A DNA stretch of 20,216 nt from Chloroflexota bacterium (GTDB taxonomy: Bacteria; Chloroflexota; Ktedonobacteria; Ktedonobacterales; Ktedonobacteraceae), in contig VBJK01000227.1 in assembly GCA_005879655.1 (NCBI GenBank), positions 1 through 20,216 on the forward strand, in the 5' to 3' direction. Below, piece by piece: positions 2,738-20,216 of the stretch. A model generated the notes under the pieces. The model did no database searches. It was not told where the DNA came from and saw only the letters and a list, made by a program, of their open reading frames with translations. The number at the start of each line of letters is the position of its first letter. The stretch's first letter is position 1. The translations under genes and the position numbers were made by a program.

Positions 2738-3313
2738 GTGAGTGACACATTACGAGCCGGAATAGTCCGCGTACAGGCGGCTAATGGAGTTGGAGCAGGT
2801 TTCATCTTGTCTGCTTCCGCCAATACCTTTTTGATCGTCACCTGTGCACATGTGCTTGGTCAATCGCAACCTTCAACAGCTACGGTGATTTTTCATCCCT
2901 CGAATGAGACCAGAGAGGTATTTGTGGACATTGCCCTTTGTCATGAAGATCGTGATGTGGGATTCCTGCGTCTGTCAGGCCCATTGCCAGAGGGAGCACG
3001 GCCTCTCTCCCTTGGCTCCTCCAAACGATTGTATCGTCATCCTATTCGTACATTCGGTTTTCCCTTACCCGACTGCTATGCCGAAGGCAGGTGGGGACAT
3101 GGAAGCATTGATGGCTTACTCCAATCTTCGAGCGAATCGTCGGTTCTCCAAATCAGTTCAGACCAGATCACCAAGGGTTTTAGTGGCTCTGCGGTATGGG
3201 ATGAGTGCAAGCAAAAAGTCGTCGGGATGGTGATCGCCTTTCAGGAACCGGATGAGTGGGGAAAAGGCGGGAAGAATGCTTACGCCATTCCTTCAGAAAC
3301 GTTGCGTGTGTGA
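2738..3313 (+). CDS. Trypsin-like serine protease domain (front part of a broken conflict protein)
   Basis: From a GTG start preceded by AGAGGTG, 191 residues form a complete chymotrypsin-fold protease. His38 is in LIVTCAHVLG, Asp73 in EDRDVGFLRL, and Ser149 in KGFSGSAVWD. There is no signal peptide, which fits the cytoplasmic trypsin domains of conflict systems rather than secreted DegP-type enzymes. The coding frame ends at AYAIPSETLRV, exactly where related proteins continue into an effector-associated region and an nSTAND1 NTPase. The next frame already encodes the middle of nSTAND1. A deletion and frame change therefore cut the original protein here. The protease could still be made as a free domain. 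It probably forms an operon with the Trypco1 gene. Confidence 0.8.
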   Translation: MSDTLRAGIVRVQAANGVGAGFILSASANTFLIVTCAHVLGQSQPSTATVIFHPSNETREVFVDIALCHEDRDVGFLRLSGPLPEGARPLSLGSSKRLYRHPIRTFGFPLPDCYAEGRWGHGSIDGLLQSSSESSVLQISSDQITKGFSGSAVWDECKQKVVGMVIAFQEPDEWGKGGKNAYAIPSETLRV

Positions 3314-4190
3314 TCAAATTGGTCGAGCATTGCCTCTGCAATATCCCAGAGGTGACAGACAAAAACATCTCATACATTGTCCAGGAACCTGCCGCCGTCG
3401 AAGGTATCCATTTTGAAGGGGAACTGGCATCTCTTATTGTCGATGACGCTATGAGATCCGCTGCCGAAGCAGTCGAAGCACGCCGCAAAAGGCATAGTGC
3501 AGTCTTGCCTTCATTGAGCTTTTGCTTACAAGAGCTCTGGGAAAAAAGAGTTGACAATAGCTTAACATTTCATAGCTATCAGTCTCTTGGAGGCGTCTTC
3601 GGGGCACTCCCCACGTTTGCGGATAAAACATATTATGCACTCCCTGAAGCACAGCAACGAATCGCCCGACGTATCTTTACCGATCTGGTCTCCCTGGGGG
3701 ATGACCAGACTGGTCGTCTTGATAGTCGCGTGCGAAGAACACTTTCTGCACTTTGTCGTCATGAGGGCGAGAGGACAGATGTTCATGAGGTAGTAGAAAC
3801 GTTTGCCAAAGCCAGTCTCCTGGAAACCCGTCTGGATAATTCTCGCCTGGAAGTGCGTGTTCAAATCATGCACGAGATCTTATTGCGAGAATGGGGTCTT
3901 CTCCAAAGCTGGTTACGCGATGATCACCAATTTATTAGTTGGCATCATGAGATTCAGAGTCGCATACAGCGATGGGGTACCAGTCACACTCTCCCAGGAC
4001 ACCGAGACCCGGATCTCCTTTTACGTGGACGAGATTTGACGGTTGCCAGCGCATGGCTTGAAGAACGGATGGCTGATATCCATCCAGACGTGCAAGCTTT
4101 TATACAGGCAAGTAAGCTGTTTTTCGAGCAAGAAGAGCAACGCAAGAAACGCTTTGAGGAAGCACAACAACAACGGCAAGTTGCACTGGC
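3308..4190 (+). pseudogene. C-terminal half of an nSTAND1 NTPase module, P-loop part deleted
   Basis: A different frame from the protease reads VQEPAAVEGIHFEGELASLI, then LPSLSFCLQELWEKR, SYQSLGGVFGAL, AQQRIARRIFTDLV, IMHEILLREWGLLQSWLRDD and DPDLLLRGRDLTVASAWLEE. This is the lid/winged-helix and helical tail typical of the nSTAND1 family found in trypsin-STAND-WD40 proteins. Walker A and Walker B, which should come about 200 residues earlier, are absent, so the upstream NTPase core was deleted at the join near 3308. A charged coiled segment (EEQRKKRFEEAQQQRQ) ends the homology. The open frame continues to 4545 as nonsense relative to the WD40 part. It cannot be an active NTPase. Confidence 0.75.
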
Positions 4191-4739
4191 CATCGACTTC
4201 ATCTTCTCAAGCATGGTGGTGCAATACGTGCCCTCGCGTTCAGCTCGGATGACCGTTATCTGGCAACGGCAGGCGCTGATCAGCAGGCTAGAATCTGGGA
4301 TGTCACCAGTGGGGCGTTACTTGATATCTTGGAACATCACAGACCGATCGATATCATCACTTTCAGTCCAGACGGGACCTTCGTTGCGTTTGCAGATGAT
4401 GATCATACAGCGATGGTATGGCAGTGGGAACCAAAAAGAAGTCAGCGGTTACGGAGGAAGCAAAATAGCGCCAGTAATCGTCAATGCTCTCATCGGGGAA
4501 TTATTCGTGCACTCGCTTTTAGCCCGGACGGGAGAAGTCTTTTAACAGCCAGCGACGACTCAACAGCGAAAGTGTGGGATCTCAGCAACGAGAACGAGAT
4601 CCAGGAAATCAAACGTTTTGAGCACCAGGGACCAATCAAGGCTGCATGTTTTCATGCCGAAGGCCAGTTGATCGTGACGGCCAGTGAAGATCACACAGCT
4701 CGTGTCTGGGAGATCAGTAGCGGCCAAGCTATACATTAA
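4191..4739 (+). pseudogene. WD40-repeat tail of the broken trypsin-nSTAND1-WD40 protein
   Basis: A third frame encodes four WD40 repeats. The first begins KHGGAIRALAFSSDDRYLAT and ends ARIWDVTSG. The second has ITFSPDGTFVAFADDDHT and MVWQW. The third has IRALAFSPDGRSLLTASDDS and KVWDL. The fourth has TASEDHTARVWEISSG. The open ORF proper would only start inside repeat 1 (ATG at 4329). The frame switches from the nSTAND1 part near 4190. Family members usually carry 7 or 14 repeats to close one or two propellers, so four followed by a stop suggests 3' truncation as well. In intact proteins this domain would be the sensor for an invader or cellular signal. Confidence 0.78.
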
Positions 4740-6639: not shown

Positions 6640-8388
6640 TCAAGATAATCCCCCAATCGGCTGATAACTCCCCTTACTGTACTCATAAAGCGTAATAGAG
6701 CAGAGTGCATTCAATTGATGCCCAATAAGCACCGCCAGTTCTACAGGAATGGCCACAAAGAGATGGATCTGTCTCACACGTTGCTGATCACAAAGTTTCC
6801 GACAGATGTGACGAACCTGTTGAGCAATGGCCCGTGCATGAGCAGCATCTCTGACAGATTCACCAGAGAGTTCGGATGACTCTAGTTGGATGCAGTAAGC
6901 TGGCGTGAAATTAACCACAGACAATGTCTCTGAGATCGATTGCTTGATGGAAAGCGTCGTAGCAACCCCTATCACAGCTATCTGTTGGTCTCCCTGATCG
7001 TTATACGTCCATTCACAGTGCAATAGTTCTTGCTCCGATGGAGATGTTTCCGTGCTCCAGATTTCCTTCTGCCCTTCGAGCAGCAAGGCGATGCCGCAAG
7101 TTTCACGAAAGACAAAACCAAGCGCGATAGCAACTGGCAAAATGCCCTTGATAAACAGGTGAATGCGATGGCTAGGGATCTTTTCGCTTATAGTACGCTT
7201 GACATCGAGCAATGCAGGCCACAGGATTTCCTCCCATTCCTGTGCAGTGGGTATATGCTCTTTCCCGTCAATAACCTTCTGCCAATCCAGAGAGAGATCA
7301 GGAATGCTCCGTGGGGCAGACACGAATGTTCTCAGATATATTGAGGGTTCATAGCTATGGTCTGCATGGATACGACGCAAGTGGAGAGCAAAAGCGTCTT
7401 GCAAGATACGTCTGGCTACGTCATTGCGTTTCTTATTCTGCTCTTGCTTCGTCTCGCTCGTCGTTCCATCCGCCAATACAATACCGTTAAAGCGGGACAG
7501 ATCTGCCAATTTACGGTTGTAACAAAACTGCTGTACCTCCGCAAAGGAGATGCCTTGTAGCAGAGGCACGATATGAAAATGAGGGTCGCGCTTGTGTCGG
7601 CGCAATGCAGCGGGGACTTCGACGCGCCAGATAAAATCCGATTGCAGACAGGAAGGGGTTAGAAAGAGCGCAATGGCATCAGCATCATGCTCGATTGCAC
7701 GTATGATCTCGCCTTCAACTAGGCTCCCAGTTGGCAGATCATCGACATCGCGCCATGAAGCGATACCACGCACATTGATGCGTAGCTGCAAGTCTCTGAC
7801 AAGCTCCGTATCCTCATGCGCATAGCTGAAGAAGACGGTGGCCCAACGCTGTAAGCCATTGCTCGCTGGTGGCTGGTTCATCGCTGGCTGTTCCACTGGC
7901 CTGACCTCCTGTTGCACTCCTGCTGGCAACGCTTTGAACTTCTCAAGGGCACGGCGAATGCCCAACGCTACATCGCGTAATGCTTCGTCCTGATTGCTCC
8001 AACTGGTAATCGGCTTCCGATTGCTGGGAAGCGGCTCAAGTTCGGCAAAAGGAGTTCCTTCCCAGTCCACCGGGCGCAGGAGAATAGGGATAACACAGGC
8101 ACTCTGCGCTTTATGCCGTTCGATTGCGCGTTGCGTCTCCGTACGGTAACAGTAATCGCTGGCCAGGAAATCTGAGCTGATCAGCAGCAGGATGATCTGA
8201 GCAGTATTGAGATGACGATCAATCTCCTGGACACTATAGGTGCCGGGCAGAATCTTGTGCTGGTACCAGGGGGTGATCTGTCGTTGCTGGACCAAATGAC
8301 TGAGATGTTTTTCTATCTCCTCCCGCAATGCTTCGTCTGGTTGTGCATACGAATAGAAAAGTTCGATGGGGCGTTGTGACTCACTCAT
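6640..8388 (-). CDS. TIR-TIR-SAVED effector of the type III-B CRISPR system
   Basis: I chose the ATG at 8388 (582 residues) because it overlaps the cmr6 stop by 8 bases (ATGAGTGA); an upstream in-frame ATG at 8415 would add nine residues. The first TIR domain (about residues 7-150) reads IELFYSYA, ITPWYQHKILPG, ILLLISSDFLASDYC and a CYRTE motif whose Glu84 is the expected catalytic residue. The second TIR (about 182-310) reads ATVFFSYAHEDTELV, LTPSCLQSD and WRVE with Glu257. After a linker, the last 200 residues form a SAVED domain: IHLFIKGILPVAIALGFVF, FTPAYCIQL, and IHLFVAIPVELAVLIGHQLN followed by YQPIGGLS at the C-terminus. SAVED binds cyclic oligonucleotides and TIR domains cleave NAD+, so this should kill or arrest the cell when Cas10 signals. 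Linkage to cmr6 rather than to a CD-NTase argues for a CRISPR effector rather than CBASS. Confidence 0.85.
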   Translation of the reverse strand: MSESQRPIELFYSYAQPDEALREEIEKHLSHLVQQRQITPWYQHKILPGTYSVQEIDRHLNTAQIILLLISSDFLASDYCYRTETQRAIERHKAQSACVIPILLRPVDWEGTPFAELEPLPSNRKPITSWSNQDEALRDVALGIRRALEKFKALPAGVQQEVRPVEQPAMNQPPASNGLQRWATVFFSYAHEDTELVRDLQLRINVRGIASWRDVDDLPTGSLVEGEIIRAIEHDADAIALFLTPSCLQSDFIWRVEVPAALRRHKRDPHFHIVPLLQGISFAEVQQFCYNRKLADLSRFNGIVLADGTTSETKQEQNKKRNDVARRILQDAFALHLRRIHADHSYEPSIYLRTFVSAPRSIPDLSLDWQKVIDGKEHIPTAQEWEEILWPALLDVKRTISEKIPSHRIHLFIKGILPVAIALGFVFRETCGIALLLEGQKEIWSTETSPSEQELLHCEWTYNDQGDQQIAVIGVATTLSIKQSISETLSVVNFTPAYCIQLESSELSGESVRDAAHARAIAQQVRHICRKLCDQQRVRQIHLFVAIPVELAVLIGHQLNALCSITLYEYSKGSYQPIGGLS

Positions 8389-9412
8389 TTGCTGTCTGCC
8401 CTCCGTGCTCATCAAGGAAGGCCCGTAGCTCTTTATACCACGTCTTCTCTGCCGTCACTTTTGTACGCCCGGCTTGCTCTACTTTGTCGATCAGAGCCTG
8501 AGCAAGCAGTTGGCGGGCCTCTGGGGATGTCAGGGTTTTCCATTTCTGATAGTAGCCAGGTATCTGCCCTGCCACATCTCTGAGCGCCATCACTTCCTTT
8601 ATATACCCTTGTGCTATTTTGAGTTCTGGATCGAGAGGCTTAGCAGGTGGATCGATGAAGGCTATACGTCCATAGCCGCTGGACGTTTTTGCGCCAATGC
8701 CAAGTTTGTCGAGCGCCTCTGCAAGAATCTGAAAGGTGATATCGATCCAGCGTGTTGGCTGCTCAAAGTCAGGAGCAGAGAGGGCGAGCAGGTAATGCCC
8801 GGTCGCGCTGAGAAAAGGAATCGGTGTGGGATCGTCGCTGTCGTATGGTACTTGAGCAGTATTCTGGTAATACTTCTGATGATGTACAGTGATGACATCT
8901 GGGACAAGTGCTCTTCCGCCTTGCTCTGTACCAGGAATATAGAGTCCATCGAAGAAGGTAATATAGCCCGCATTGTCGGCATCACCGAAGACCACACGAT
9001 GAAACATTCCTCCCTTGCGCCATTCATCGCCAAGACGATGGTGGGCATAACTTGCGGCCAGTCCCTTCAACGCACTTGCTGGGATGTAGGGTACGCCATA
9101 GGTACGATGCAAACTGATCGATGCCTCTAGCAGGCTTTCGCTACCAAGTCCTATTACCATACGCCCTCGCACCCGCACTTTGCGCGTCTGGGCACGACAA
9201 TCCTTGAGGATTGCCTGCCAGCGCGTGAAAAAGGCAAGATACTCAGCAGGCTCAGGCTGTTGCGCCACCTCGTCTACTAGCTCGCGCCGACTCTTTGTAT
9301 CTTCGCGCTGCTGATCAAGCAGATACTTATCCAGCCAGAGACCTGCGTGTGTGCCCCGCTCTTGCCGTAGCTCTGGGGTGAATATTTGATGAATGGTCTT
9401 CTGATCAATCAT
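8381..9412 (-). CDS. Type III-B RAMP protein Cmr6
   Basis: This 343-residue RAMP-fold protein caps the crRNA 3'-side end of the Cmr complex. The N-terminus is helical. The core reads VRGRMVIGLGSESLLEASI, then YGVPYIPASALKGLAASYAH, the characteristic Cmr6 segment, with FHRVVFGDADNAGYITFFDG following. The glycine-rich RAMP loop is GIGAKTSSGYGRI. Its ATG overlaps the cmr5 stop by 4 bases and its stop overlaps the effector gene start by 8 bases, so translation is coupled on both sides. It is full length with no lesion seen. The C-terminal 80 residues are charged and helical, longer than in minimal Cmr6. Confidence 0.9.
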   Translation of the reverse strand: MIDQKTIHQIFTPELRQERGTHAGLWLDKYLLDQQREDTKSRRELVDEVAQQPEPAEYLAFFTRWQAILKDCRAQTRKVRVRGRMVIGLGSESLLEASISLHRTYGVPYIPASALKGLAASYAHHRLGDEWRKGGMFHRVVFGDADNAGYITFFDGLYIPGTEQGGRALVPDVITVHHQKYYQNTAQVPYDSDDPTPIPFLSATGHYLLALSAPDFEQPTRWIDITFQILAEALDKLGIGAKTSSGYGRIAFIDPPAKPLDPELKIAQGYIKEVMALRDVAGQIPGYYQKWKTLTSPEARQLLAQALIDKVEQAGRTKVTAEKTWYKELRAFLDEHGGQTANE

Positions 9413-9792
9413 TGCTCCATGCCATCCTGTCTTATTGATTCAGTTACATCCACTTCAAGAATTGACTGCGCGAAGCGTTTGTACCAGAGAAGCGCGGCAA
9501 GCATCTGTCTAGTCAGCCGGATATAGCGGCTCAATGGTGCACTCTTGACTGTTTGCAGCAGCGTTTGCGCATTCTCCTGCCCCAGAGTCACGGCAAGATG
9601 TTCAAGCAGGCGTCTCTGAATGGGTTCGCCGCGTGAATTGACAAACTCTAGTGCCTGTACAAGCCCTGCCGTGTGAATGAGAACGGGCAGTTTGTGGGCC
9701 ATCGCACCATATTTTTTATAGTCTTTCTCCTTTTTTATAGAGAGAACCTGCTCATAGGCACTGGCTGAGTATTGCTGGTCAAGTGTCTGCAT
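9409..9792 (-). CDS. Type III-B small subunit Cmr5
   Basis: This 127-residue all-helical protein is the filament-forming small subunit that lies along the target RNA in the Cmr complex. QQYSASAYEQVLSI near the start, YGAMAHKLPVLIHTAGLVQA in the middle and the helix YIRLTRQMLAALLWYKRFA at the end match Cmr5, whose typical length is 120-150. The ATG at 9792 lies 3 bases after the cmr4 stop. The stop overlaps the cmr6 start (ATGA). No lesion is seen. Confidence 0.88.
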   Translation of the reverse strand: MQTLDQQYSASAYEQVLSIKKEKDYKKYGAMAHKLPVLIHTAGLVQALEFVNSRGEPIQRRLLEHLAVTLGQENAQTLLQTVKSAPLSRYIRLTRQMLAALLWYKRFAQSILEVDVTESIRQDGMEQ

Positions 9793-9795
9793 GGG

Positions 9796-10695
9796 TCATG
9801 CCTCCTTTCCCATCTTGCCATCGAGCAAGACACGACAAAGTCCGCGTCCAACGGTCGCCTTCCCGCCGAACTGCAATGTTGTGTTCGTCAAGCCTTGCAG
9901 CACCTCGAACACTTTGGATGCTGTGATCCCCGATTTTTTGGTTGGTATTGCCAGCACAATGCCAGAGAGAATCGTTTCCGTGGGTAGGGCTTCTTCGTAC
10001 CAGAGGCCACCATCCTGTACCGTTTTGGCGTCTTCTTGCAGTTTGATGCGCGCAGTTATTTCTGTGGCAGCGTCGATCAGGAAATTAAAAACGTCATCAT
10101 GTACAATGCAGAAGCGTTCGATCAGCATCGTCTGCCAGTCTGTAGCGCTCGGAAATACACGCCGGGCTATCCAGGAAACCCATGCATAGGCCTCAGGAAG
10201 AACTGCGGCGGACGAGATTTGAAGATCTTCGAGATAAACGCTGCTATCAACGTCGATCTTGCTTGTCTGGCTGGCAATGGCACAGTGGTCTTCATCCTCG
10301 ATCACTGGAATGGACCCTTCGGGGAGTGCGAGTTGAGCATCCGCGATGTCGCGGGCAAGGCGACGCAGGATATATGGCGAAGTCACCCAGGCAAAGGTTC
10401 CGGCCAGGCTACGAACGGGCAGTAGCAGTAAGCGTTGATCGGAGAACTGTGCGGAACTGGCGTGCAGGTCATTGGTCAGGCGATCTTCCATATCAGGTCC
10501 GAAAACCAGACGGCAATCCTGGGGATTCTGACAGCTTGCACGTAAGGTTCCCTTGAGCGATGAACCAGGCAAATAGGGCAAGCCAGTGGCTTTTTCGCGT
10601 GCAATAGGCAGATCAATGATCCCGGCCCCCTGACCCGTCCCTGCATGGAGGGGTGAGAGGGCATGCACAAAGGAGAGGCATGTTGTACTCTTCAT
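9796..10695 (-). CDS. Type III-B backbone RAMP and target RNase Cmr4
   Basis: This 299-residue protein forms the backbone of the Cmr complex and cuts target RNA at 6-nt intervals. The N-terminus reads FVHALSPLHAGTGQGAG followed by IIDLPIAREKATGLPYLPGS, then SLKGTLRA. Asp28, in the loop before LPIARE, is at the position of the catalytic Asp of known Cmr4 proteins. ILRRLARDIADA forms the thumb-side helix, and FGGKATVGRGLC near the end is the glycine-rich RAMP loop. The start is 8 bases after the cmr1 stop and cmr5 begins 3 bases after its stop. It looks intact. Confidence 0.9.
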   Translation of the reverse strand: MKSTTCLSFVHALSPLHAGTGQGAGIIDLPIAREKATGLPYLPGSSLKGTLRASCQNPQDCRLVFGPDMEDRLTNDLHASSAQFSDQRLLLLPVRSLAGTFAWVTSPYILRRLARDIADAQLALPEGSIPVIEDEDHCAIASQTSKIDVDSSVYLEDLQISSAAVLPEAYAWVSWIARRVFPSATDWQTMLIERFCIVHDDVFNFLIDAATEITARIKLQEDAKTVQDGGLWYEEALPTETILSGIVLAIPTKKSGITASKVFEVLQGLTNTTLQFGGKATVGRGLCRVLLDGKMGKEA

Positions 10696-10703
10696 CTTCT
10701 CTA

Positions 10704-11919
10704 TTAAACTTCCTTAAACCATTGCATAAACGCTTGTAATACGTCTGTTTCATTCCTGAGAACCGGAAGCCTTCTGGTGAGCAAGCGAGCTTCCTCTTTC
10801 GTGAGCATTCCATCCACAGGCTCTAGCTTTTTTTCTTTATCCTGCAAAACGAGCTGTTGGAGATCAACACGCGACCCTTCAAGGAGCAGAGCTAATCCAA
10901 CGGCCCGTTTATCACGGCAGAGAAAAGGGCGCAGGATGAGAGGACTGGCAAAACGTTCTTTGCTTTCTAGTACTTCACGTTCTGTATCAGCTTCATTGAG
11001 CGTGTAATCATCTGGTGCATCATTGCCTGTAAAGTGAAAGGGAATGGGTAAGCCAAAGGCGGCACGAGGGAACACTTCTGGACTGGGAGGAAAATTCTTG
11101 GTCCTTTTTCCGTCTATGCGACGGATAGCATCTGCCTCCGGCCATGCGCTACGGTTATGCTCATCTTTTTGCAGTCGGAAATCCTGTAGCTTTCTTACCA
11201 GAGTGTTCCATGCCCGCATAGGATTATCTGTTGGTGCTGTCAAAGCGAGCTGCAAGTCGCTGGTGAGATGAGGAAGACCGGCAGGAAAACTCCCCGCTTT
11301 GAGATGTTTGCGAGCTTCATCTTGTATCCAGCGCTTTACATCATGAGATGCAGGCAGCAACTGATTTGGTTCATCATCAATCGAGAGCAGATGGAGCGCA
11401 CCAAAACCACGCCGCGTGCGCCCTCCCAGACCGCCAAAGGTTTCCCAGGCCCACAGAGCTGCTGCGATCTCCTTAGCCAGATGTTCAGGATATGAAATAG
11501 TCAGCAGAAACTGCACCCCTTTCTGCACATCTGGAATAGATGGGTTCGCTTTTTTGCGCTCATGCTGATCGGGCTGCAAGGGAAATGCCTTCCTGGGAGA
11601 CAACGACCACAATCTGCACCGTTTGATTGGGAGGTATACCCTTATCGCCTTTTTCATAGGCTTTCCCCCAAATCGCATCCTCTCGTTTCTTCATATCAAG
11701 ATCGCCTTCGGCCTGGCCTCCGCGCATAGCACGCCACCAGAAACGGAGATGGCCACGCACCTCGGTCGCTCGTACGACGCTGATAGGATCGGCTTGATGA
11801 GGAGTCACACCCCCACCATAAAGCGGGGTAATAAGCTCATATTTGCGTTTCTGCTCAACGAGAGCAAGCTCGCGGTGAGTGATCTCTGTCGGAGGTGTGA
11901 CCTCTGGTTGTCTTCTCAT
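10704..11919 (-). pseudogene. Type III-B RAMP protein Cmr1, split by a frame change
   Basis: The first frame (11919 down to 11560, 119 residues) starts from an ATG with GAGGAAAGAGAT before it. It gives the Cmr1 signature KYELITPLYGGGVTPHQADP, then VVRATEVRGHLRFWWRAMRGG. The second frame (to 10704) carries AFPLQPDQHERKKANPS, VQFLLTISYP and AALWAWETFGGLGGRTRRGF, which is the rest of Cmr1. The two meet near 11585-11592, where VVVSQE passes into AFPLQPD. Skipping one base there restores a protein of about 404 residues, the normal Cmr1 size. Cmr1 caps the Cmr complex at the target 3' side. The lesion is either a mutation, a sequencing error or recoding; I see no classic slippery heptamer. Spacing to cmr3 (12 bases) and cmr4 (8 bases) is that of an intact operon. 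Confidence 0.85.
11585..11592 (-). other. Frame-change site inside cmr1
   Basis: On the minus strand the sequence is GTCTCCCAGGAAGGCATTTC. The upstream frame reads VSQEGIS and soon stops, while the downstream frame reads SPRKAFP and continues. Removing one base among the AGGAAGG positions joins the two. The exact base cannot be fixed from sequence alone. Confidence 0.7.
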
Positions 11920-11931
11920 GTATCTCTTTCC

Positions 11932-13170
11932 TCACTGCATCGCTACCGGTTGCCCGGACCATGTTCCCAGGACGGCCAACCCAAAGCCATCACAACGGCT
12001 CTGCTCATCATCGCTCATACAGTGCATCCATGTTCGTTCAATCCAGATCTCCAGCGCGGCATCGCTTGCTGCCTTCACAGAGAGGAAGAGGACCGTTCCC
12101 GCCGCAGCCAGACGACGCGAGGATTTTGGTCTGCCGAGCGCAAGATCCCACCCAGAAACCACCTGGGGACGGCGTACGGCGATGGCTCGTAGCTCTACAT
12201 CGACACCACACTGCTGTGCATGGGTCGTACGTAGCCAGCTTGGATAATAGCCTTCCGCAAAATGAGCCGGAGTCAGCAGCACAAGGCGGCAATGTCCGTC
12301 ACGTTTGATTGCCTGCTTGATCTCCTTGGGGCATGGAGGCAAATGCGCATTGCTTTGACGCCAAGTGACGATACGACGTTCACCACCAAAACTAGCAACG
12401 CCCCCTCTGAACGTGACATTGGTCTCATCGACATCGACGGCCAGCGCCAAGCGTCGAGCCTTATGCAAACGCTGCTTTTGTGCTCCGGGGTGCGTGAATT
12501 CCAGCCCCGAAGTCCCAAAAAGCAGACCCTCTTTCCCCATCTCTCTCTCTGAATCCATACTCACGTGCAGGCGGCGCTCATGAAGAAGATCTTCACGACC
12601 CAGCGAGGAGAGAGGCAGGTCATCTTCCTGTTCGAGTTGCGCGGGATCGATAAGCCAGGTTTGAAATGGCTGCCAGTACCAGTAGCGTAATGCGTGGGCG
12701 AGTGGCTTGCGTGGCAGTGCAGCAGCGCGGCTCTGTCCAACCAGGAGCAATTGTTGTTCGCGGCTCTGCTGAGCAAAATCGGTCTGTGCACCAGCGGGAA
12801 GAGTAAGCGGGACGAAACGGAGCAGGCGAACCACCCCTTCAGCATCAGTAGCAAACAGCTGGACATCATTGGGCATAGGCACTAACCACGCATTCTCATC
12901 GGGGGCAAGAGCATCGCCCTCATCAGCCAGCTGCACGAGCAACGGACCACGAATGCGTATCCCTTTGAGCTGTTTGAGCTGCTCCTTATCATCTTGTTCA
13001 TACTTGAAGGCCCCATCCTCATCGAGGGCTGAGCGTCTACGAACGCCACCAGCAATGGTTGAAGGAAACGGAAAAGGCAGCGACGCGGCCCACGCGCCAG
13101 AATCGGGACTAAAGGGGCGTCCATCACGCACAATCAAGGGGTCGCGAGGCTCAACGAGCCAGATGGTCAT
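11932..13170 (-). CDS. Type III-B RAMP protein Cmr3
   Basis: This 412-residue protein pairs with Cas10 at the foot of the complex and holds the crRNA 5' handle. The N-terminus WLVEPRDPLIVRDGRPFSPD, then SLPFPFPSTIAGGVRRR, is the classic Cmr3 opening. Further on come IRIRGPLLVQL, LPALV-like linker material with LFATDAEGVVRLLRFVPL, FGTSGLEF in the middle and VVSGWDLALGRPKSSRRLAA near the end. The ATG overlaps the cas10 stop by 4 bases, so it is translationally coupled. The stop lies 12 bases before cmr1. The reading frame is intact over its whole length. Confidence 0.9.
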   Translation of the reverse strand: MTIWLVEPRDPLIVRDGRPFSPDSGAWAASLPFPFPSTIAGGVRRRSALDEDGAFKYEQDDKEQLKQLKGIRIRGPLLVQLADEGDALAPDENAWLVPMPNDVQLFATDAEGVVRLLRFVPLTLPAGAQTDFAQQSREQQLLLVGQSRAAALPRKPLAHALRYWYWQPFQTWLIDPAQLEQEDDLPLSSLGREDLLHERRLHVSMDSEREMGKEGLLFGTSGLEFTHPGAQKQRLHKARRLALAVDVDETNVTFRGGVASFGGERRIVTWRQSNAHLPPCPKEIKQAIKRDGHCRLVLLTPAHFAEGYYPSWLRTTHAQQCGVDVELRAIAVRRPQVVSGWDLALGRPKSSRRLAAAGTVLFLSVKAASDAALEIWIERTWMHCMSDDEQSRCDGFGLAVLGTWSGQPVAMQ

Positions 13171-15134
13171 AGCTTCACTCCTTCTCCAGGTTGCGCCAGT
13201 TCTGCCGCTTCAGCCAACATCTGCGCAATCACCAGTTCATTGATAAATGTCTCTAGCGAGACCAAAGGACGACGTTGTATCTCCCTTTGCTCCGCTAAAG
13301 AGCGTACCATGCTAGATGCTTGAAACATATTATGTTGACCTTTTTGCTCCTGCGGTGGCAGGTCCAACTGGACACGTAAAAAGCCATCAATCTCTTTGAC
13401 TCGCTCAGGCGGCAACTTACCTGCGGGCACAGTTAATTTGCGCATCAAAATACGCAGTGCGTCGAAGCGCATGACGTTTTGCAAGGCATCATACTGCGGA
13501 TCAGTTTCGGGGACAGAGAGACGCAGCACCAGATCACGCAATTCGTAGGCCATACCCACGGGGAGACTGGCAGCACGGCAATAGGTCATGAGCTGGGATA
13601 GACGAACATCGATATTGCCCCAATTGCCAACGGCACGATAGTCTTCGCCACTACGCTTGCTCACCGTGATGGCCAGAGCGTTCTTTCCTGCGCGCTTAGC
13701 CTGCTGCTCGGCATCGTGAGCCAAATAGCGGGCATCGCGCAAAGAAGCAAGCTGATGTACAATAGCAATACCGACCGAAAGTGTAGGAGGACGACGACCC
13801 AGCCGAGTCCCAAGACCCTTCAATGCATTATGGAAACGCCTTTTCAGTTCAACAGCACACTTGAGAACGGTATGCAGAGGAAGAAACGCGAGCACATCAT
13901 CACCGCCGGAATAGACTAGCGCCCCCTGATGATCCTCATTGACGACCTTGCGCACGCTTTCAGCAAAACGAGAGAGCGCTTGTGAAAGCTCACGATGGCG
14001 TTCATATCCATGTTCTGCCAGCGCATCGATGAAGTCACCCATACTATCACCGTCAGCTTGTAGCAGCGCATAATACGTTGAGGGGCGCTTCTCGCCCAGG
14101 CCAATTCTGCGGAACTGCTCATCAAGTGAGCGATAGAAGGTTTGCTGTCCATCTCTGGCCTGTAAAAGCCTCTCATTCAACGTTGTATCCGTGGAGGGAA
14201 GAGCGAGCACGTCTGCGAGTCGGCCTTCAAAGAGGAGAGAACCATCATGGCGGTCCAGTATAGGATGAGCCGCGTACTCCTGAGAGATTTGTTCTTTGAG
14301 TGGAATGACTGCCAGTTGGTCCAGTTTCTTGATAGAGACATCCCAGGCGGCGCGAAGCTTCTGCTTCCCGGCAGCATCAATGCGCATCATGCGCTGGAGA
14401 AAAGGGAGTGCAGCAATATGGGATGTACTGGGGAAATGGGAATCAAATGCGGTCCTACCTGAGCGCTTGAGCAGATCAACACCTGAGAGGCGTTCTGCCA
14501 GCCCTGCCACTCCGTAGCGGTGGTAGAGGCGCTGAAGCGTGGCCAGCTATTCGGCGGTAGTCGCATTGGGAGGGGGAGATTCGCTTTCCAGGATCACACT
14601 CTCAAGCTGCCCATCCAGAGAGGATTTGGGGGCCTCTGCGCCCCACTTCACTGGCTGAAAAGTCAAGGTGTTCTTGCGTACAGCCATCAATGACTCCAGG
14701 TCCTTACGCACCTCATGGTAGGGCTTCTCCTCGTAGGGGAGTGTAACCCACATCAGTTCGATCAAATCATCGATCTGCCGATATGCCACAGCTCTTTGCT
14801 CACCGAACAGAGCGATATCTTTGTAGACCTTATCTCTGATAGCATGCAAACGTCGAAAAACGGCTGCTTGTACCTGTACGGCCAGCTCCTCTGGTTTCTG
14901 CTCAATAAGGGCGAGGATTCTATTGGCAACGTTGAATGATTGACCTGGTTGTAGCCAAACTGTGTTCTCTGGTGCCGGAAAAATCAAATACCCATTGCGG
15001 GCATTGATTTCATGAGCGGCGGCGCGGGAAAGTTCACTGAGAAACCATGAGCCAAAGTGAAGGTCGCGTGTGCGGCGTGCGCTAGCAATAAAGCCCTGGA
15101 CAGGTCCAAGAGTCACAAGAAAGAGAAAACGCAT
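13167..15134 (-). pseudogene. Cas10 (Cmr2), HD-less cyclic-oligoadenylate synthase, interrupted by one in-frame TAG
   Basis: Two parts lie in one frame: residues 1-195 (15134-14547) and the rest (13167-14546, with a possible GTG restart at 14510). They are separated only by TAG at 14547-14549. Reading through gives a protein of 655 residues. The first part starts RFLFLVTLGPVQGFIASARR, then TRDLHFGSWFLSELSRAAA, the Palm1-like start of Cmr2 proteins that lack the HD nuclease. The second part has QADGDSMGDF (about 359-368) and YSGGDDVLAF with GGDD at about 410-413, the cyclase site in Palm2. Cas10 makes cyclic oligoadenylates on target RNA binding, feeding the SAVED effector at the operon end. 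CAG to TAG is a single change, and AEQLATLQRLYHRYG would be a natural sequence. If not suppressed, the stop removes the whole GGDD domain. It overlaps cmr3 by 4 bases. Confidence 0.85.
14547..14549 (-). other. In-frame amber codon in cas10
   Basis: On the minus strand the context is GCC GAA TAG CTG GCC. The frame is otherwise open from 15134 to 13167 and coding character continues immediately after, with LATLQRLYHRYGVAGLAERL. The next in-frame start candidate is a GTG at 14510, with no well-placed ribosome binding site. Confidence 0.85.
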
Positions 15135-16169: not shown

Positions 16170-16392
16170 AACAGATATTTCATCTAGCCTCCCAAGCCTT
16201 CTACACCGGCACTTTTTTCCCGATATTTAATATTGTATTGTGTCTCAAGCTCCAACGAGCCTCCCAAGCCATTTAGACACAGCCGTTTAAGGATGCCATT
16301 TTCGCTGTCAGAGTGTCTCAAGCTCTAACGAGCCTCCCCAGCCATTTAGACCGCAAAGTTTAAATCTTTTAGCTCCAAGACACGGGGGTCTC
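16170..16392 (-). CRISPR. CRISPR array, trailer-end segment (left of the intron)
   Basis: Two full 37-nt repeats lie at 16242-16278 and 16315-16351. The first 5 nt of a third (GTCTC, 16388-16392) follow, and a decayed terminal copy lies at about 16170-16206 (AGCCTCCCAAGCC kept). Spacers are 35-36 nt. Plus-strand repeat halves are GTCTCAAGCTCCAACGAGCC and TCCCAAGCCATTTAGAC, with substitutions in the second repeat (CTCTAACG, CCCCAGCC). Read on the minus strand the repeat ends CTTGAGAC. Decay at this end and the GAAAC-type 3' end of other copies both indicate that transcription runs leftward and that this is the old, trailer end. Confidence 0.85.
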
Positions 16393-17124
16393 ATGAAGTG
16401 GGTAGACAGCGCGTTACGTTCTTGGTATAATAGAAGGGCAGCCAAGAGCTTGACCAGAGCGCAGAAAAACCACTCTCCGTTCCCGTACTCTCTATACCTA
16501 CGCACGTTTCTGTCCACCTCTTCCCGAACCGTACAGGCTACTTTCATAGCATACGGCTCTCCAGGCACACAATTCTTCACTGGGTCTCCTGCCGCATCCA
16601 CGACAACCCAGTGCTTTCCATTTGCGTAGCCCTACACCCCTTCCCCTTGTATCGGGCATTACCCCAATCATTTGAGTACTACGAGTGCTCTGTCACCATG
16701 CACCGCAAGGGTGTTTAGGTGATCCCCAAGTTACCTGAAAAGGTTCGTTCTGTGTTTAGGCAGCCCTTGCGTCGTTTCCCACTCCGTGTGGGCTGGTTTC
16801 GGTGGGAGTTTTAGAAGGAAGAGCTTGTTTTCCCGCTAACACCGAACACAGGCGGTTATATCGTATCCTGTGGGCCTCGTTTTGACCTCCGCGACTAGAC
16901 TTCAGACAGTTTGGTCTTTACCTTGCACAGCCTAGCTGACCGACCTCTGGTTTGCGATACTCAAACTTCACCGGCCTTCCTCACATCATGCTATTGTCCC
17001 CTCGCGCCTTTCGGCTGAAGGTATCCCTATACTCTTATTTGTATAGGTAAGATGCTGCTTTAATCACTTTACTCCAGTGATATCTCTTCCTTGAAATAGA
17101 ACCTTTTCTGCCACATGGGCGCAC
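16393..17124 (-). mobile_element. ORF-less group II intron inserted in a CRISPR repeat
   Basis: On the minus strand the element begins GTGCGCCC (17124), the group II 5' consensus, and ends CACTTCAT (16393). Domain V is a 34-nt hairpin at 16526-16559 with the AGCCGTATGC start, a GAAA loop and GTACGGTTC end. A domain VI stem pairs GGTGGACAG with CTGTCTACC. Removing the 732 nt joins GGAGCTT to GAGAC and rebuilds a perfect repeat. Candidate EBS1, AAGCTC (16821-16826), is complementary to exon GAGCTT. Candidate EBS2, AACGAG (16876-16881), is complementary to CTCGTT, one base further upstream, and the order in domain I is as expected. No reverse transcriptase is encoded, so mobility would need one in trans. 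It lies in the same sense as the predicted crRNA precursor, so splicing could restore the array transcript. Confidence 0.87.
16401..16559 (-). ncRNA. Group II intron domains V and VI
   Basis: Domain V (16526-16559) has lower stem GAGCCGTA/TACGGTTC, upper stem GCTAT/GTAGC, and a GAAA tetraloop. Domain VI is closed by a 9-bp stem (16510-16518 with 16401-16409) with one G-U pair and is unusually large, about 118 nt. The 8 bases after it reach the 3' splice site. The intact catalytic core argues for splicing competence. Confidence 0.82.
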
Positions 17125-17438
17125 AAGCTCCAACGAGCCTCCCTTGCCCCTTACACCCCGTAGAGGTGGACCAGGAATGACTGCTGGCCCAAGTCTCAAG
17201 CTCCAACGAGCCTCCCTAGCCCCTTACACACTCTTATGTTCCATTCGAGATGTCCTTGGGGTTGTGTCTCAAGCTCCAACGAGCCTCCCTAGCCCCTTAC
17301 ACCTATGATGTTGCACACGGCCATCAGTCAACTGCTGTTGTCTCAAGCTCCAACGAGCCTCCCTAGCCCCTTACACCATCGCATCGCCGGACTACCTCAC
17401 TGAAGAGACAGAGTCTCAAGCTCCAACGAGCCTCCCTA
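17125..17438 (-). CRISPR. CRISPR array, central segment between intron and IS
   Basis: This segment begins with the remaining 32 nt of the intron-split repeat (17125-17156). Full repeats follow at 17193-17229, 17266-17302 and 17340-17376, then the first 26 nt of a repeat (17413-17438) that the insertion sequence cuts. Spacers are 36-37 nt (17157-17192, 17230-17265, 17303-17339, 17377-17412). These repeats share GTCTCAAGCTCCAACGAGCC but end CCCCTTACAC instead of CCATTTAGAC. No spacer matches anything else I can see in the window. Confidence 0.92.
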
Positions 17439-17573
17439 CACTACAGTAGCACTTATAAGCAGAGCCATATGAGAGATGAGAGCCAAAAAAGGCTCATGAA
17501 ATCTCAAAAAACTTGTGACATTCTGTAAACAGAAAAAACCTTGAGAAGAAAGCACAAAAGATCGGAGACCATC

Positions 17574-18956
17574 ATGAAACACCAATATGATACCACAGAA
17601 GAAGAAATGCGACCATCGATCAAAGAAATTCATCAATGGAAATGGAGCTTAGAGCAACTGCATCAACGTATCGCCCCTCGCTTCGCACGACCGGAACCAC
17701 GTCATCATGCCCTGCTCTACCTTGAAGCCATTTTGAGTGAGATCCCCCGCAAAAATAGCTGGCAAATAGCTGAACATGCCCTGCTTACGCGACCCTACGG
17801 GATGCAACGCTTGCTCTCCAAGGCTGTCTGGGATGTCAACGGAGTACGTGATGACTTGCGTAAGTACGTGCTCGAACAGCTTGGCACACAAGAGAGCATG
17901 GAGGCTATTCTGGTTCCTGACGAGAGTGGCATTCCCAAGGAAGGCAAAAAATCAGCCGGAGTCAAAAATCAGTATTGTGGACTGACTGGATGCGTGCAGA
18001 ATTGCCAAGTTGGAGTCTTTTTGAGCTATGTCACGAGACGAGGCCACGCCTTCATTGATCGTGATCTCTATCTGCCAGAAGATTGGATTGATGACCCAAA
18101 GCGGTGTCGTGAGGCTGGCATTGCTGACGACGTGGCATATCGCCCCAAATGGGAGTTGGCTCTCAATATGATCAAACGAGCAAGACTGGCGGGCTTGCCG
18201 TTTGGATGGATAGTGGCTGATGAGGTCTATGGCCAAGCAAGAGAGCTACGCAGATGGCTTGAGCAACATGGTTATGCTTATGCTTTAGCCATCCCCTATG
18301 ATGAAGCCGTTTGTGTGCAGACCCTCAATGGAAGCTATATGCTGGCACAAGCCAGAGAGCTTGAGATTACTCTGCTTCAAGAGCAAGACTGGCATCGACT
18401 GCCGATGAGCCAAGGAACGAAAGGACCTCGCATGTTTGATTGGGCGATGTTGCCTGTGATGCATCAGGGAACGATCGATGGTCGCCACTTCCTCGTGATG
18501 CGTCGGTGCATCGATGATCCAAGCCAAACGACCTATTATCTCGTCTTTGCTCCTGTTGGCACCACACTCCAAAAGATGGTTTGGGCCATTGGGGCGAGAT
18601 GGCACGTAGAGGAAGACCTACAAGCAAGCAAAGGGCTTGGACTGGACCAGTACGAAGTACGAAGTTTCATCGGATGGTATCGTCATGTCACACTTGTTAT
18701 GCTGGCTTATGCCTTCCTCGTTGGCATTCGTGTCCATGATCAGAGCCATCTTCAGGCTCAGATTCCCCTTCCAACCACTCAACACTCACATCCCCTCATG
18801 CCTTTGACCACCTCTGAAATCCAACACTTGCTGGCCCGGCTCTGCTTTCCGTTGCCCTTTCATGCCACACTCGTACAAGCCTGGTCACACTGGCGTAGAG
18901 AACACCAATATTGGGCCAGCTACTACCACATGAGAGCGCGGCTCAAAGCTGGATAG
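17574..18956 (+). CDS. IS701 family DDE transposase
   Basis: This 460-residue protein starts at an ATG with GGAG 6 bases upstream. The RNase H-fold core has the family blocks LVPDESGIPKEGKKSAGVKN (Asp116), YCGLTGCVQNCQVGVFLSY, LYLPEDWIDDPKRCREAGI, GWIVADEVYGQ (Asp216), and RWHVEEDLQASKGLGLDQYE with the candidate catalytic Glu at 346/347. It ends WYRHVTLVMLAYAFLVGIRV, another IS701 hallmark, and a basic tail. Length is normal and the frame is uninterrupted, so the element may be active. It should cut and paste the element by binding the 16-bp end repeats. The observed 6-bp duplication differs from the 4-bp sites usually quoted for IS701 members, so it may be a side branch. Confidence 0.88.
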   Translation: MKHQYDTTEEEMRPSIKEIHQWKWSLEQLHQRIAPRFARPEPRHHALLYLEAILSEIPRKNSWQIAEHALLTRPYGMQRLLSKAVWDVNGVRDDLRKYVLEQLGTQESMEAILVPDESGIPKEGKKSAGVKNQYCGLTGCVQNCQVGVFLSYVTRRGHAFIDRDLYLPEDWIDDPKRCREAGIADDVAYRPKWELALNMIKRARLAGLPFGWIVADEVYGQARELRRWLEQHGYAYALAIPYDEAVCVQTLNGSYMLAQARELEITLLQEQDWHRLPMSQGTKGPRMFDWAMLPVMHQGTIDGRHFLVMRRCIDDPSQTTYYLVFAPVGTTLQKMVWAIGARWHVEEDLQASKGLGLDQYEVRSFIGWYRHVTLVMLAYAFLVGIRVHDQSHLQAQIPLPTTQHSHPLMPLTTSEIQHLLARLCFPLPFHATLVQAWSHWRREHQYWASYYHMRARLKAG

Positions 18957-19114
18957 CAGAGCTATGCACACACAAAGACAAAAATTTCTCTCTGGGGATT
19001 TTCCCCTCTCTTGTTAAAGAGCATTGTCTTAAGGCAGGACTCTGATCCTTTGGTCCTATCCTCAGGTCGTCTCGAGTCTTGTCCAGTCTGATCATTTGAC
19101 GCGAAAGGAGCGCC

Positions 19115-19981
19115 ATGATGACCCTTGTTTCTCTAGCTGACTGTTGTCGCAGGCTCTGCATTGACAGCAAGACCTTGCATCGTTGGCTCAAGCAGGCCCA
19201 CATCTCTGTACAACCTCATCCAATGGATACACGGTGCAAGTGTCTGACCCTGGAACAGATCCAGCAGATGGCGGCGGCTCACCACCGCAGCTTGCATGAC
19301 GCTGTGCACCAGCACTTGCCAGCACCAATCTCTGCTCCCTGTGACGTTGGGGCACATCCCTCTCATCGAGATGAGCAGATGGCAGATCTGCAAGCTCAAG
19401 TTGCCACCTTACAAAGTCAACTGAGCCAGCTGACACAACTGCTGCAAAAGGTGCAAACACAGGAACCGAAGGCTTCTGCAACCTTGGGCAACATGCAAGA
19501 GAACAAATCCCAGGATAAGTCCCAGAACAAATCCCAGGATAAGTCCCAGGAGTCTTCCCAGGATAAGTCCCTGAAGAAATCCCAGGATAAGTCCCAGGAT
19601 AAGTCCCCGAAGAAATCCCAGGACAAATCAAAGCCTCCCTCTGCTGCATCAATTGATCGACGCAAACATGTTGTGCCACTGGTTGAATATGCGGCTGAGC
19701 GCGGCTATGTCGTGATCAGTCCCGAACTGGGAATGCTTGACTTTCAGCCTGATTCTCCCGAATGGTTTGCTTGGCTCTTCATGCTTCCTTCTTTTCGCTT
19801 CGTCGGAAAATTGGGTCATTTTACTGCTTATCGGGGCAACCACTTCGGGCCTGACAGGGCTTGGAGAGCCTGTCGCCACATTCGCAATCACGTCTATCAT
19901 GAGCCTTTGGGCAAAACTGAGTCTCTTACTGTTGCCCTGCTTGAACAGGCTGCCGCCGCTCTTCAATCGCATCTGAACTAG
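19115..19981 (+). CDS. IS accessory protein: HTH, SQDK-repeat linker, regulator-type C-terminal domain
   Basis: This 288-residue protein starts at an ATG after AAAGGAGC. Residues about 4-50 are a MerR/excisionase-like helix-turn-helix (VSLADCCRRLCIDSKTLHRW, CLTLEQIQQMAA). Residues about 88-112 form a coiled coil (MADLQAQVATLQSQLSQLTQ). Residues about 129-172 are a low-complexity tract of roughly eleven 4-residue units, mostly SQDK with SQNK, SQES, SLKK and SPKK variants. The C-terminal 100 residues contain MLPSFRFVGKLGHFTAYRG, RAWRACRHIRN and PLGKTESLTVALLEQAAAAL. As I recall, this resembles a small domain in LuxR/MalT-type regulators of Ktedonobacteria. It lies inside the IS end repeats, so it is element cargo or a transposition helper or regulator. 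Function is unknown. Confidence 0.7.
   Translation: MMTLVSLADCCRRLCIDSKTLHRWLKQAHISVQPHPMDTRCKCLTLEQIQQMAAAHHRSLHDAVHQHLPAPISAPCDVGAHPSHRDEQMADLQAQVATLQSQLSQLTQLLQKVQTQEPKASATLGNMQENKSQDKSQNKSQDKSQESSQDKSLKKSQDKSQDKSPKKSQDKSKPPSAASIDRRKHVVPLVEYAAERGYVVISPELGMLDFQPDSPEWFAWLFMLPSFRFVGKLGHFTAYRGNHFGPDRAWRACRHIRNHVYHEPLGKTESLTVALLEQAAAALQSHLN
19504..19632 (+). repeat. 12-bp tandem repeat encoding SQDK units
   Basis: About eleven imperfect copies of a 12-bp unit such as TCCCAGGATAAG lie in the IS accessory gene. Unit length is a multiple of three, so copy number can vary without a frameshift. The repeat also keeps long open frames on the minus strand, which are not genes. Confidence 0.85.
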
Positions 19982-20049
19982 CTCTCTTCGCGGATGAGCT
20001 TCGGGCTTTTGCTCCCGGCCCACGTTCTCCTACAAGTGCCACTGTAGTG

Positions 20050-20216
20050 TCCCTAGCCATTTAGACGTCAATGACAACTCTGATAGCCATGCTCACTTCG
20101 GGGTTTCAAGCTCCAACGAGCCTCCCTAGCCATTTACACGCTGATGGCACTATGAAGATCCGCCCACCTATTCCCTCTGTTTCAAGCTCCAACGAGCCTC
20201 CCTAGCCATTTCGACA
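20050..20216 (-). CRISPR. CRISPR array, leader-side segment running off the right edge
   Basis: The rest of the IS-split repeat (TSD copy plus GCCATTTAGAC, to 20066) is followed by a 36-nt spacer, a repeat at 20103-20139, a 39-nt spacer, and a repeat at 20179-20215 at the window edge. Here the plus-strand repeats start GTTTC rather than GTCTC, so on the minus strand they end CTTGAAAC, the usual type III handle. Their other end varies: CATTTACAC and CATTTCGAC. The array probably continues, and its leader and perhaps adaptation genes should lie to the right. Confidence 0.88.

Follow-up and report, generated by a model that had tools for sequence, protein, structure and literature searches.

The window analysed here, a stretch of 20,216 nucleotides from a member of the Ktedonobacteraceae, carries a type III-B CRISPR-Cas locus. 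Profile matches placed cmr2, cmr3, cmr1, cmr4, cmr5 and cmr6, followed by the gene for a TIR-TIR-SAVED protein, in one operon on the minus strand (positions 6640 to 15134). The cmr1 to cmr6 families together with a repeat-spacer array assign the locus to type III-B. The TIR-TIR-SAVED protein (6640 to 8415) overlaps the end of cmr6 and is likely an ancillary effector; its doubled TIR domain, the first copy of which is ThsB-like, may be unusual. A search for Cmr2 relatives found 1155, and among the 120 listed, all six that carried an organism name were from Ktedonobacteraceae. Two of the cmr genes are interrupted: cmr2 contains an in-frame TAG at 14547 to 14549, which three relatives read through, and cmr1 is split over two overlapping frames (10704 to 11919). 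Both lesions could be due to decay or to sequence errors. The nonsense codon and the frame break make selection on the array in this strain doubtful. Elsewhere in the window, at 2738 to 4739, trypsin-like, nSTAND1 and WD40 pieces lie in different overlapping frames and are perhaps parts of one broken STAND-type gene.

The array is built of 37-nt repeats separated by 35 to 39-nt spacers and was mapped on the minus strand in two blocks. The left block (16170 to 17449) holds repeats at 17413 (cut by an insertion sequence, IS), 17340, 17266, 17193, 17120 (the intron-bearing one), 16315, 16242 and 16170, the last being degenerate and forming the array end. The right block, beyond the IS (20050 to 20215), consists of a repeat piece at 20050 and two repeats ending in GAAAC (20103 to 20139 and 20179 to 20215), and it runs past the window edge. 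Repeat variants change along the array (16170 to 20215). Repeats to the right of the IS end in GAAAC and those to its left in GAGAC; the 5′ parts are of the GGGGC type between the IS and the intron and of the ATGGC type on the outer side of each. The IS itself (17439 to 20049) is inserted in another repeat of the array, has the ends CACTACAGTRGCACTT and is flanked by a 6-bp duplication, TCCCTA. It contains a DDE_5 transposase gene (17541 to 18956) and an ORF of 288 aa (19115 to 19981) that matched no Pfam family and contains 12-nt repeats.

Type III crRNAs carry 8-nt tags that resemble CTTGAGAC and CTTGAAAC, the two sequences in which the repeats of this array end. The terminal repeat at the left end (16170 to 16206) is degenerate, with 14 mismatches. 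Both the tag-like repeat ends and this degenerate repeat point to the minus strand as the one on which the array is most likely read; its leader lies beyond the window. The intron described below would therefore lie in the predicted crRNA sense, and both lines of evidence agree with the earlier note, a reading of the DNA that had placed the intron in the sense of the predicted pre-crRNA.

The array is interrupted by a 732-nt element (16393 to 17124, minus strand), an anatomically complete group II intron without an ORF. Its first nucleotide, the G of GTGCG, is position 17124, and its last, the T of the terminal CTTCAT, is position 16393. These ends were read directly together with the flanks and agree with the 5′ GUGYG and 3′ AY ends of group II introns (GUGCG and AU, respectively). 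The Rfam model for domain V, RF00029, matched the element with 53.3 bits against a gathering score of 40 (E 3.8e-8). Domain V, which also appears in the minimum free energy (MFE) fold, spans 34 nt (16526 to 16559) and shows the AGC triad, a GAAA loop and a 2-nt bulge. Domain VI folded as a long stem (16395 to 16523), and its candidate branch A at 16399 is part of an unpaired CA, 7 nt from the 3′ end, in this single-sequence fold. The match to the Rfam model stops at 16425, since the stem of domain VI is very long in this intron. A short hairpin without an ORF (16578 to 16613) in the same fold is a candidate for domain IV. The intron as a whole folded with a z-score of −2.89, and 0 of 20 shuffles were equally stable. 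The identification as an ORF-less group II intron seated in a CRISPR repeat, with its 5′ GTGCG, domain V and domain VI stem, thus held in each part that the earlier note had named, and the domain V covariance model, a check proposed there, gave a clear match.

Rfam also holds families for group II domains I to IV. None of these matched the intron up to an E value of 5, leaving domains I to III without a class, and the plastid models before and over domain V scored far under their cutoffs (for example, 32.8 bits against 140 for RF04359). The longest stop-to-stop frame listed across the intron is 112 aa, so the intron encodes no reverse transcriptase (RT). Profile scans of each of the nine window ORFs of at least 300 aa gave no match to an RT family in the libraries applied to it.

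The intron interrupts its repeat after nucleotide 32, i.e., 5 nt before the repeat 3′ end. The first 32 of the 37 nt form the 5′ exon (17125 to 17156, minus strand) and the last 5 nt, GAGAC, the 3′ exon (16388 to 16392, minus strand). Rejoining the flanks gives GTGTAAGGGGCAAGGGAGGCTCGTTGGAGCTTGAGAC. Excision had been predicted to rebuild a perfect repeat; a 37-nt repeat is indeed restored in the sequence, but "perfect" does not hold, since 1 of its 37 positions differs from the commonest repeat of the array. The repeat can also be drawn with a candidate hairpin, AGGCUCGUUGGAGCUU, of −6.9 kcal/mol, which ends precisely where the intron is inserted. For the repeat as a whole, however, the MFE structure is a different fold (−8.3 kcal/mol), and it is no more stable than those of shuffles (z −0.58).

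Two stretches of the intron are complementary to the repeat just upstream of the junction. The EBS1 candidate AAGCTC (intron nt 299 to 304, window 16821 to 16826) pairs 6/6 with IBS1, GAGCTT (−6 to −1, 17125 to 17130), and the EBS2 candidate AACGAG (intron nt 244 to 249, window 16876 to 16881) pairs 6/6 with IBS2, CTCGTT (−13 to −8, 17132 to 17137). All four lie on the minus strand, both IBS elements are within the 5′ exon repeat, and the total is 12 pairs of 12. The isolated EBS-IBS duplexes have free energies of −5.4 and −6.3 kcal/mol. EBS1 was found in a hairpin loop whose stem has pair probabilities of 0.84 to 0.996. EBS2 had initially been expected in a simple hairpin loop as well, an arrangement that received a probability of only 0.02 in the fold; 4 of its 6 nt are unpaired in the MFE structure. 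The 6/6 and 6/6 pairing given in the earlier note was thus confirmed, and the expected EBS2 hairpin was left unsupported. In 5000 dinucleotide shuffles, EBS1 was present at nt 150 to 400 in 391 and EBS2 in 438, and both occurred in the real order and 20 to 120 nt apart in 9, with region and spacing both chosen after the real positions were known. The suggestion that the repeats of this array form a landing field was borne out to the extent that 9 of 10 repeat-like stretches keep IBS2 and IBS1, the occupied repeat being one of the nine.

A rival explanation is that a general group II intron landed in the array once, through a chance IBS match. About half of the array consists of repeats, which makes a seat in one of them unremarkable; the window holds a single intron copy, and the IS, too, interrupts one of the array's repeats. 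Introns are frequent in this group, with 34 group II-type RT genes given for Ktedonobacter racemifer in the accessible part of PMC3236041. What argues against such a single event are the insertion sites of related introns: in 3 of the 3 relatives found, the site fits a CRISPR repeat with an offset of 5 nt, and in one of these the repeat sequence is a different one. In light of these sites, a one-off landing is improbable.

The related introns were reached through protein. A chance open frame (16308 to 16601, minus strand) runs through domains V and VI into the 3′ exon and the next repeat, and its translation served as bait for the 3′ exons of relatives. This query yielded three relatives, P0121, P0122 and P0123, among three candidates. 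A second, hybrid query composed mostly of intron frames returned the same three among six candidates; it held residues of P0121 and P0122 and is not an independent sample, and the first bait held repeat-coded residues. Identity to the bait was 49/64 for P0121, 38/53 for P0122 (partly over repeat-coded residues) and 28/31 for P0123. The three are known from translations of spurious ORFs alone, in which the intron tails are conserved across the copies and the 3′ exons are readable (n = 3).

In P0122, the intron tail is followed directly by RHSDSENGILKRLCLNG, which is the window sequence starting at the end of the 16315 repeat (43 of 44 residues identical) and leading into a later spacer of the same array. 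An intron in a related strain therefore occupies a repeat that is intact here (16315 to 16351). A second insertion would be the simpler reading of this sequence. Alternatively, P0122 could carry the very insertion seen here and have lost one spacer-repeat unit, a loss that would need recombination through only the 5 nt of repeat that lie 3′ of the intron.

In P0123, the intron tail, in another frame, runs into GYAAY, 35 nt and then a repeat ending in GAYTGYAAY. This exon contains a codon-compatible direct repeat with a period of 73 and a run of 36 nt, a length that 0 of 2000 residue shuffles reached (maximum 26). Taken as 37 nt, which is an assumption, the P0123 repeat itself ends in GYAAY, which places this intron, too, 5 nt before a repeat end; the second copy is covered for 33 nt. 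At this length, it is compatible with the three window repeats compared at 21, 23 and 21 of 37 positions, respectively, with 3, 0 and 1 of 5000 shuffles as good. The P0123 repeat differs from the window repeat yet resembles it, and the window EBS1 and EBS2 could pair with it at 5/6 and 5/6.

P0121 continues with KPLQRSQLRWFKILV and then ends. Its exon would fit GAAAC, in which the right-hand repeats of the window end, followed by 38 nt and GTN-stop (GTGTAA or GTCTAA) as at a repeat start; this is compatibility only, and the end of P0121 could be a contig end. In random DNA after a fixed G, a GAAAC or GAGAC start is expected in 0.8%, and with GTGTAA or GTCTAA after a 34 to 40-nt spacer in 2e-5. 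P0121 also keeps the domain IV stretch TGLS.MRQETQ, which is recognisable from the window intron, and so looks ORF-less there too. Taken together, the translations suggest that each of the three relatives (3 of 3) lies in a CRISPR repeat, with the same orientation relative to the repeat and a distance of 5 nt to its end; the case is strong for P0122 and P0123 and weak for P0121. The proposal that repeats serve as homing sites gains from this common offset, to the degree that three translated exons allow, and insertion of related introns at non-CRISPR sites, the pattern that would speak against it, was not seen among the three readable relatives.

One 8-nt stretch of domain VI, TCAAGCTC (intron nt 672 to 679, window 16446 to 16453), is identical to 8 nt of the other strand of the repeat. 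It was considered as a second targeting element and set aside: the coding frames over it are conserved in P0121 to P0123, including P0123 with its different repeat.

DNA-level searches covered plasmids, phages, viral contigs, genome contigs and Synergistaceae relatives, sets with no bearing on Ktedonobacteria, and no close copy of the intron was found in any of them. Plasmid DNA gave one match to the intron, 52 nt over domain V, and phage DNA gave none. Repeat plus spacer DNA was absent from the plasmids, as was the bait ORF by tblastn. The domain V pattern occurred at nine loci in viral contigs, of which whole-intron blastn at 1e-3 matched one (34 nt over domain V); the patterns for domain VI, the intron 5′ end, the window repeat and the P0123 repeat had no match in the viral contigs, nor was cmr2 present there. 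One scan of genome contigs for the repeat-intron junction gave a single match, in a Synergistaceae contig; it was judged to be chance, since no CRISPR-like array was found in the first 3000 of the 7236 bases of this contig, which include the match. RF00029 matched in 2 of 21 genomes, made up of this Synergistaceae genome and relatives, with one locus matching the intron over 52 nt of domain V, and 389 relatives of the genome gave no intron match at 1e-6.

We consider it probable, at roughly 0.77, that this intron belongs to a lineage that targets the 3′ part of certain CRISPR repeats and inserts 5 nt before the repeat end. The intron would have moved by retrohoming, with an RT/maturase supplied in trans. 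It would be transcribed together with the pre-crRNA, and splicing would rebuild the repeat and soften the cost to the array. Trans donors are plausible in the group given the 34 group II-type RT genes of K. racemifer in the accessible part of PMC3236041.

The copy in the window may be a dead remnant, an intron once mobile that no longer splices, in an array and Cmr operon that are both decaying. This reading concerns the present copy only and is compatible with a lineage that homes to CRISPR repeats. In its favour are the lack of an RT in cis, the cmr2 stop and cmr1 frame break, and the IS that has entered the array. On the other side, domain V, the branch A of domain VI and the two EBS candidates look intact, intron tails are conserved among the copies, and the Cmr lesions could be sequence errors. 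We regard a dead remnant as unlikely, though it keeps appreciable weight.

The position of the pairing elements raises a further point. IBS2 and IBS1 overlap the two arms of the candidate repeat hairpin (which is not the MFE structure of the whole repeat), and EBS-IBS pairing (−5.4 and −6.3 kcal/mol) would compete with that hairpin (−6.9 kcal/mol). Because of this overlap, splicing may have to compete with Cas6-type cleavage for one RNA. An extended form of the homing reading is rather unlikely and is put forward as tentative. In it, CRISPR repeats would be the habitat of the lineage, the EBS elements would change with the repeat from one array to the next, and copies would move from repeat to repeat; since the intron would pair with both arms of the repeat hairpin, splicing and crRNA cleavage would be mutually exclusive and the intron would act as a switch on crRNA output. 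That the host has adopted the intron as a regulator, with splicing controlling the maturation of flanking crRNAs and the host keeping the intron for that purpose, is very improbable. The agreement of the intron with the predicted crRNA sense and the overlap of IBS2 and IBS1 with the hairpin arms would suit such a role. Against it, the occupied repeat differs between the strain of P0122 and this strain, the candidate hairpin is not the MFE structure of the repeat, the Cmr genes are broken and the IS splits another repeat.

The closest parallel lies in the group IIC-attC introns of integrons, which, in the accessible part of PMC7923331, insert into the bottom strand of attC, in the sense opposite to that of the transcribed cassettes, and use a hairpin where IBS2 would be. 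In both cases, a group II intron lands in an element that recurs along a prokaryotic array and can form a hairpin (a candidate one in the CRISPR repeat), with insertion into the stem-loop or directly after it. Unlike those introns (PMC7923331), the present one has a CRISPR repeat as its target instead of attC, and its sense agrees with the predicted transcript. Here, the IBS2 candidate pairs 6/6, as does IBS1; a candidate hairpin (−6.9 kcal/mol), which is not the MFE structure of the repeat, also abuts the site. A second parallel is provided by the ORF-less group II introns of Thermosynechococcus elongatus, which are mobilised by driver IEPs of other introns (PMC2882425, accessible text). Both are compact, with a reduced domain IV, no RT in cis and good EBS/IBS pairing. 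They differ in that no partner RT was found among the window ORFs of at least 300 aa, and CRISPR is not mentioned in the main text of PMC2882425. Group II introns are also the source from which RT-Cas1 and further CRISPR-associated RTs evolved (PMC4424553 and PMC5513706, accessible portions), a known evolutionary link between group II retroelements and CRISPR. RT-Cas1 and its kin are proteins without a ribozyme that are tied to spacer uptake, whereas the window intron is a ribozyme without a protein and lies in the array. No group II intron in a CRISPR repeat was found in the open-access literature as far as its text was accessible, including PMC8865420, PMC8547433, PMC4853749, PMC12479173, PMC8919778 and PMC6013744; the accessible text of PMC7714728 concerns CRISPRi cells and contains no such intron.

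If the homing reading is true, the lineage would parallel the integron attC introns and would mark a new meeting point of group II elements and type III CRISPR. The intron-in-repeat arrangement would also allow a direct test of competition between splicing and crRNA processing on one RNA. An intron with matching EBS elements would find many safe targets in CRISPR repeats, since these are numerous and nearly identical, are presumably transcribed and tolerate an insert if it is spliced out. Such a retroelement would have the immune memory of its host as its niche.
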